A stretch of 64,000 nt of DNA from Erysipelothrix tonsillarum DSM 14972 (GTDB lineage: Bacteria > Bacillota_I > Bacilli_A > Erysipelotrichales > Erysipelotrichaceae): contig NZ_KB892377.1 in the NCBI RefSeq assembly GCF_000373785.1, positions 646,934-710,933 of the forward strand, in the 5' to 3' direction. This document shows, one piece after another, positions 47,047 through 49,380 of this stretch. The position numbers were made by a program, and so were the translations under genes. Each line of letters starts with the position of its first letter. The first letter of the stretch is position 1. The notes below the pieces were generated by a model that did no database searches, had not been told where the DNA came from, and saw nothing but the letters and a program-made list of their open reading frames with translations.

Positions 47047-48126
47047 CTATCGCGTTTTAAAGAATTCTGGAATATCATTATTGTTCTCTGAGCGACGTTC
47101 TTCTTGATTGTTATGGGATGTTTGATAAGCTGGTCTTGCTTCTGCTGCTGCACGGGTCACATGAACCTCAGGTGCAGGTTCCTCTGCGCCATCAAATCCT
47201 GTCGCAATAACTGTTACAATGATGGAATCTCCTATATTTTCATTAATAGCAACTCCAAAAATGATATCAATATCATTTCCTGCTGCATCACGAATATAGT
47301 CAACCGCTTCTGACGCATCTTGGATTGAAATAGAGTCGCCCCCTGTAACGTTAACAATCGCATTACGAGCACCATCAATTTGAGCTTCAAGCAATGGAGA
47401 TGTAATTGCTTTTTGAGCCGCTTCAATTGATTTGTTTTCGCCTTGTGACATACCAATACCAATCAACGCACTCCCTTGGCCTGCCATTACCGAACGTACG
47501 TCCGCAAAGTCAAGGTTAATCATTGCAGGGACTGCAATCAGATCTGTAATGGTTTGAACACCTTGTCTCAACACATTATCAGCCTCTTTAAATGCTTCCT
47601 GGAATGGAATTCGGCCAATAACCTCAAGCAATTGGTTGTTGCTTACGATAATTAGTGAATCAACATACGATTTCAATTCCTCTAAACCAGCCATCGCTTG
47701 ATTTGAACGGCGACGACCTTCAAATGTAAATGGCTTCGTTACAATACCAACTACCAATGCACCTTCTTCTTGCGCAATTTTCGCTACAAGTGGAGATGCC
47801 CCAGTACCAGTACCACCGCCTAGACCTGCTGTAACGAATACCATGTCGGCGTCTTTAACCGCTTCACGAATTTCATTTTCACTTTCAACGGCAGCTTTAC
47901 GTCCCATTTCAGGATTCGCTCCAGCGCCCAACCCTTTTGTTACTTCACGACCTAATTCAATTCTGTTTACTACAGGTGAGCAATTTAGGACTTGTAAATC
48001 TGTATTTGCTACGTAAAATTCGACACCCTTCATGCCTTCATCAACCATGCGGTTTACAGCATTACATCCTGCACCACCAACACCAATTACTTTAATTCTT
48101 GCTACTTGTTCAAAATTCGCATCCAT
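47047..48126 (-). CDS. ftsZ: Cell division protein FtsZ
   Basis: 359 residues. GTP-binding motifs: [15 protein letters not shown], the tubulin signature [12 protein letters not shown], and the synergy-loop residues in [19 protein letters not shown] short variable linker leads to the C-terminal peptide DIPEFFKTR, which binds FtsA and other partners. It polymerises into the division ring. GGAGG precedes the ATG, and ftsA lies 18 nt upstream. Confidence 0.97.
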
Positions 48127-48144: not shown

Positions 48145-49380
48145 TTAACGTTCAAAGAACATGCTCTTTAGTTTTTGAGTTATCGAGTCATCTTCATCTT
48201 TTTCATATTGTAACACAACTCGTTTAAACTCATCTTCATCAACGCTTGAGAGTGTTACATCACGGAATATACTTTGGTCTTTGTAAAAGTAAAACGCACC
48301 TACAAGCGATGTTAAACCGTAGTCTTTCACACCAAATGTTGTAGAACGGTATGTAACCGCCTCCGCTTCTGTTATATTTGTAATAATATCTGTTATTCCT
48401 ACTATCTCAGCGGCTTCGCCACTTAGAATAAAACGTGGTGACCCCAAATTTTCGAAAATAGGTTCACAACTGTTACATATTTCGATCACAAATTTATTGA
48501 TATCATCTGCAACTAAAGTCATAAGATCTACCTGTGATAAGGTATGGGATGTTGATTTAGTTGACCAAATAAATATGGGATCATCTTTTGGATTTTCGTT
48601 ATTTAAATCGATATTAAAGTATAACAATCGATGTACAACATCCGTTGGAACTTTTAAAGTTCGTTCGATTTTTTTCATAAAGACATCAAATCCACGATCA
48701 ATATAATCATTGGAAAGTAAAATCCCTTTATCAAATAACGAAAGTTTAGTTAATTTTTCACCTAAAGTTAAAGCAACAATCGGTTTATCAATCGATGCTT
48801 CAAATAACGAAGCTTCTTTTGCGTAACCGATATCGTCTAAAACAATATCAATAATCTTTAATCCTGATTTTTCAACACATGACACATATGGGAAAATGAT
48901 GGATTGTTTACCAAAGTAGCAATCTGCTTCAATTGTTAAACTCTCACATCGTTCATTTAATGGTAATTTACGTGTAGAACTTCCATTCACAAAATACTTA
49001 CTCATTAAAACATTAGTTAATATATGCCCTTCAGGAGCTTTTACGTTTAATAATTCTTTATATGCTCTTTTTACATCATTCTCAGAAATACGCCCAGTGA
49101 TTGGTACGCGCAATTGTTTATTGATTCGCTTCATATGGACGCCTGGAACAAGTAATAATACTTGCTTAATTACAACCCCCAAATTACGCGACGCATTTTC
49201 AATTGCTTTTTTAATTGAATCTACCACATGAGTTTCACTCATGATAGAGTAGCCTGCCACACCTAGATGTGGAACGCGTTCAACCTTTAAAATATTTAAT
49301 CGGCCATTGAAAAATTGCCCAACTAATAAGCGCACTTCATGATCCGCGATTTCTAAAGCTGCAATTATTTGTTTCTCCAT
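48145..49380 (-). CDS. ftsA: FtsA-like division protein with degenerate nucleotide motifs
   Basis: 411 residues from ATG 49380, with AAGGAGG 7 nt upstream. It is FtsA by position directly before ftsZ, by length, by the 1C-domain start NILKVERVPHLGVAGY, by the SHS2-like fragment VPITGRISENDVKRAYK, and by a C-terminal amphipathic tail (TQKLKSMFFER) suited to membrane binding. The actin-fold nucleotide motifs are not normal. Phosphate 1, usually DIGT, reads EIADHE (10-15); phosphate 2, usually D.G.G.TD, reads ALTLGEKLTKLSLF (203-216); and the GG(S/A) adenine motif reads LSGEAAEI. It may not bind ATP. Confidence 0.85.
   Translation of the reverse strand: MEKQIIAALEIADHEVRLLVGQFFNGRLNILKVERVPHLGVAGYSIMSETHVVDSIKKAIENASRNLGVVIKQVLLLVPGVHMKRINKQLRVPITGRISENDVKRAYKELLNVKAPEGHILTNVLMSKYFVNGSSTRKLPLNERCESLTIEADCYFGKQSIIFPYVSCVEKSGLKIIDIVLDDIGYAKEASLFEASIDKPIVALTLGEKLTKLSLFDKGILLSNDYIDRGFDVFMKKIERTLKVPTDVVHRLLYFNIDLNNENPKDDPIFIWSTKSTSHTLSQVDLMTLVADDINKFVIEICNSCEPIFENLGSPRFILSGEAAEIVGITDIITNITEAEAVTYRSTTFGVKDYGLTSLVGAFYFYKDQSIFRDVTLSSVDEDEFKRVVLQYEKDEDDSITQKLKSMFFER

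Follow-up and report, generated by a model that had tools for sequence, protein, structure and literature searches.

FtsA binds ATP in the best-studied species, and many E. coli mutants with changes near its pocket lose function. The structures of S. aureus FtsA (3wqt, 3wqu and 3wt0) hold ATP or AMPPNP, while in the FtsA described here, which shares their fold with the IC (SHS2) domain and the C-terminal tail, all three nucleotide motifs are replaced. PilM also has an FtsA-like fold, but it is clearly more distant; its solved form binds nucleotide, and it has no link with ftsZ, unlike the FtsA of this study.

The ftsA gene and its product

The window, that is the whole stretch of 64,000 nucleotides from Erysipelothrix tonsillarum that was analysed, contains the following features, each given with its evidence.

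48145..49380, minus strand: ftsA, variant without nucleotide motifs, 411 aa (profile, phmmer, AF2 model, fold match, ribosome-binding site)
49330..49353, minus strand: phosphate-1 site EIADHEVR (residues 19-26), in place of D-I-G-[ST] (alignment, conservation)
48748..48768, minus strand: phosphate-2 site TLGEKLT (residues 214-220), in place of D-I-G-x-x-x-[TS] (alignment)
48406..48423, minus strand: adenosine site SGEAAE (residues 329-334), in place of x-G-G-[GAS] (alignment)
48148..48189, minus strand: predicted C-terminal helix DSITQKLKSMFFER, putative membrane-targeting tail (tail pattern, helix in model)
47047..48126, minus strand: ftsZ, 359 aa, with C-terminal peptide (ORF, profile, peptide)

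The reading frame of ftsA is intact, and a ribosome-binding site (AAGGAGG) stands immediately 5' of its ATG at 49380. An alternative in-frame ATG further upstream gives a 420-aa FtsA; residue numbers refer to this form, and those of the 411-aa form are lower by 9. The gene lies directly upstream of ftsZ with 18 bases between them, and the family loci found via FtsZ likewise carry an ftsA-type ORF just before ftsZ. The closest named FtsZ to that of the window comes from E. urinaevulpis (86%).

The product of 48145-49380 is an FtsA orthologue by profile, phmmer, fold, gene position and trees. It matches TIGR01174 (FtsA) with 82 bits (E 4e-23), below the curated cut-off of 175.85 bits, which is also missed by one third of the canonical FtsAs of the sister family. 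By phmmer it matches S. aureus FtsA 3wt0 with an E-value of 6e-16, and the SHS2_FTSA profile gives 8.7e-5, just under its cut-off. The protein is not matched by the PF14450 FtsA domain. Moreover, the AlphaFold (AF2) model, with a pLDDT of 90.3, has the full FtsA fold with an SHS2-type IC domain, and its best PDB matches by Foldseek are FtsA structures. Those of S. aureus rank at the top, and their best chains reach a TM score of about 0.77–0.79 (query) and 0.84–0.85 (target).

A search for a second ftsA or a sepF had been proposed in the first-pass annotation. With profile searches, only one ftsA-type gene was found in the Erysipelothrix genome, and sepF is present. The other match to PF14450 (the only one to this profile) and to TIGR01174 in the genome is MreB, and further FtsA-profile matches in the family genomes are MreB-sized or belong to other proteins that share the ATPase half only.

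Replacement of the nucleotide motifs

Compared with S. aureus FtsA, DIGSSSVK has become EIADHEVR at phosphate-1, DIGEDVT has become TLGEKLT at phosphate-2 and TGGSAN has become SGEAAE in the adenosine motif, so that by alignment the window FtsA fails the motif test of actin-type ATPases at all three sites. Judged from the sequence, the decisive changes are G21 to A and S22 to D in phosphate-1, D214 to T in phosphate-2 and G331 to E in the adenosine motif. G216 of phosphate-2 is still present. E. coli FtsA carries a glutamate, Glu14, at the first position of phosphate-1 (PMC10213515), and therefore the change from D to E at this position alone is no loss.

Conservation in the family

Relatives were drawn from a genome search, named genomes and a class-wide survey. 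They were counted as 96 FtsAs of the family Erysipelotrichaceae (with one lineage, L028, set apart), 17 of a sister family of the same order and 44 others including L028. A phylum-wide search for more FtsAs returned matches from the same class only and added nothing new. The family with altered FtsA includes Erysipelothrix, Holdemania, Dielma and Solobacterium. In two genomes (G028 and G273) neither ftsA nor ftsZ had a match, but PolA had none either, which makes them uninformative.

Three pocket glycines separate these groups. None is kept in 90 of the 96 family FtsAs and one in the other 6, while all three are kept in 17 of 17 sister-family sequences; among the others, three are kept in 33 of 44 and two in 7. 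The family consensus of the phosphate-1 loop is E-x-[AST]-D-H-E-[VI]-R (in a narrower form, x is I, V or L), and the replacing residues are E19 (89/96), D22 (87/96), H23 (77/96), E24 (95/96) and R26 (93/96). In the adenosine motif, E331 is found in 82 of 96. The phosphate-2 glycine is gone in most of the family although the window FtsA has it, K214 and R217 are common in this loop, and an aspartate at 214 persists in 18 of 96. Other canonical-like positions also remain, namely T220 (87/96), G330 (94/96) and G332 (76/96). Within Erysipelothrix the ADHEVR loop is constant down to about 40% overall identity, unlike the phosphate-2 loop, which is variable.

Since the same replacement occurs in 96 family sequences, the motif change is not chance. 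The claim that the nucleotide motifs are absent or badly altered is thus borne out by alignment and conservation, and the motifs did not turn out to be conserved by chemistry. For EIADHE in place of DIGT, the loss of the glycine and serine stands, while the D-to-E change should no longer be read as a loss. The reading frame is open in nearly all family members found, and ftsA is under purifying selection, with a dN/dS of 0.06 and 0.07 against the two closest congeners used (dS is saturated at larger distances).

Origin of the change

L028 (genome G022) belongs to Erysipelotrichaceae and has canonical FtsA motifs (DIGSYEVK, INLGYQTS and GGGGAE). A glutamate already stands in its FtsA at the position of E24. 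FtsA trees were built without the motif columns, one of 120 rows and a careful one of 40 rows. L028 is sister of all other family FtsAs with an SH-aLRT of 95 in the former and support of 97/93 in the latter, and the family clade including L028 has support of 100/99 in the 40-row tree. Being canonical and sister to the rest, L028 indicates an ATP-type motif in the ancestor and a single loss of it. These trees put one origin of the replacement near the root of Erysipelotrichaceae, just after the divergence of the L028 lineage, and the new phosphate-1 loop has stayed conserved ever since. An FtsZ tree, used as a species check, is weakly resolved, and one clade of the altered lineages is not rejected (p-AU 0.69).

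Outside the family, the motifs were lost independently on the tree in two long branches, the Spiroplasma-like L186 (G179), in which TGA is used as a sense codon, and L184 (G087, family f10). They are lost as well in the FtsA of L094 (Clostridia), whose adenosine motif is GEG. One assembly of another family (L173; G299, contigs C15 and C236; family f22) has two ftsA-type genes of 416 aa, which group with L128 of Erysipelotrichaceae and may be contamination (8%).

Putative membrane tail, FtsZ peptide and other division proteins

The C-terminal tail pattern is found in 95 of 96 family FtsAs. In the AF2 model the tail of the window FtsA is a helix, and its hydrophobic moment is no higher than that of shuffled sequences. 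Almost every family member keeps the C-terminal FtsA/SepF-binding peptide of FtsZ, usually in the form IPxFF. At this C-terminus (47047-47080 in the window), most of the sister family has PxFL where the family mostly has IPxFF.

SepF (134 aa) and EzrA are present in the window genome. Both proteins are found almost throughout the family and equally in the sister family with canonical FtsA; EzrA was found in all readable genomes among 60 relatives of both families. ZapA had no match in the window genome or in any of the 60 relatives' genomes. Because the status of SepF, EzrA and ZapA is alike in both families, the change lies in FtsA and is not a swap of known anchors. The gain of a known replacement anchor was rejected on the same distribution. 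The suggested alternative anchoring of the division ring found no backing here: the tail pattern and the FtsZ peptide are kept, and canonical relatives have SepF and EzrA to the same extent.

One genome of Erysipelotrichaceae, G018 (a single contig of 3.9 Mb; locus L189, G018:C1:2438000-2448000), has the altered ftsA together with ftsZ and ezrA, and SepF was not found in it with the Pfam profile or with the SepF of a near relative as query. If G018 truly has no SepF, the altered FtsA is the only known peripheral tether there.

Proposed function of the altered FtsA

The reading that we favour, on balance, is an FtsA that has become a pseudo-ATPase, is uncoupled from ATP and continues to tether FtsZ. 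Its parts differ in strength. Canonical ATP binding has very probably been lost in the family FtsA; it is likely that the altered protein is still an FtsZ tether, and somewhat less so, though still more probable than not, that it tethers without ATP. The pocket would no longer hold Mg-ATP in the manner of actin, and the protein would be locked in one conformation with no ATP switch; it would serve as a tether that uses the C-terminal peptide of FtsZ and the amphipathic tail of FtsA, and act alongside SepF and EzrA. Cell division in Erysipelotrichaceae beyond the L028 branch would then probably rely on an ATP-independent FtsA. A pseudo-ATPase that keeps the membrane tail had been proposed in the first-pass annotation; alignment, conservation, tree and model agree with a pseudo-ATPase FtsA of kept fold and tail, and for ATP binding itself we infer the loss from them. 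Counterpoints are the G216 kept in the window FtsA, the family members with Asp214 and the tail moment at the level of shuffles. A precedent for the favoured reading is E. coli FtsA with E14R or S84L, changes beside the nucleotide, which stays on lipid with or without ATP (PMC10213515). Against it, division fails in the E. coli mutants that bind lipid without ATP (PMC10213515), so that a locked state is not known as functional.

Several other explanations were weighed against an FtsA that tethers FtsZ free of ATP. It is unlikely that the altered FtsA still binds nucleotide and is switched by it, e.g. without Mg or with K/R of phosphate-2 meeting the phosphates. In its favour, the hydroxyl at 220, G330 and G332 remain and K214 and R217 are common; against it, the acids D22, E331 and often E216 occupy the would-be phosphate positions, almost the whole family has lost the glycines from both phosphate loops, and the phosphate-2 sequence varies freely among Erysipelothrix. 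Hardly more probable is that anchoring was given up, with SepF and EzrA holding the ring and FtsA left only to scaffold or recruit the division proteins that arrive later. Both SepF and EzrA are indeed present in the window genome and almost throughout the family, and an active Z-ring can be formed by FtsZ and SepF in a minimised B. subtilis, according to PMC11790237. The near-universal tail pattern speaks against it, as do the same two proteins in relatives with canonical FtsA, where nothing known was gained in compensation, and G018 without detectable SepF. Decay of ftsA, to which the low family-model scores could point, has practically no probability, because the replacement motif is conserved with dN/dS of 0.06–0.07 and the frame is open in nearly all members.

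A more specific form of the ATP-free tether, which we put forward tentatively as a minor possibility, is an internal lock. The acids of the ADHE loop and Glu331 would replace the phosphates and pair with K214 and R217, and FtsA would be permanently ATP-like, membrane-bound and polymerising. As a sign of such a filled pocket, co-variation of H23, E216 and E331 was considered, and there were too few independent changes. If the lock exists, the actin filament with which an entire bacterial family divides would contain no nucleotide.

Comparison with known systems

No description of a motif-less FtsA from Erysipelothrix or Erysipelotrichia was found in the open-access literature (subscription journals lay outside the search), and the Erysipelotrichaceae FtsA that fails the motif test of the actin ATPase superfamily is apparently undescribed in the literature searched. 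Annotation based on PF14450 can overlook ftsA in Erysipelotrichaceae. The MPN316 family of Mycoplasma (NF045748), which we take to be a divergent FtsA, is FtsA-like and is matched only weakly by the window FtsA (14.5 bits, E 0.014; the cut-off of 500 bits is not reached). The degenerate Spiroplasma-type FtsA of L186 has also lost the motifs, but its residues are KNYSFSF, DWDYD and GEI, and it is a separate lineage.

The closest comparison is offered by the FtsAs of the sister family (L112-L127 and L131) and of L028, which are orthologous to the window FtsA by tree. Their motifs are canonical (DIGS; DIGY or INLGY; GGGG), unlike those of the window FtsA, while in the sister-family genomes, as in the window genome, SepF and EzrA are present and ZapA is without a match. 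A family without the canonical site beside a canonical sister lineage is a natural experiment on the ATP of FtsA, and their comparison could separate tethering, polymerisation and divisome activation from the nucleotide state.
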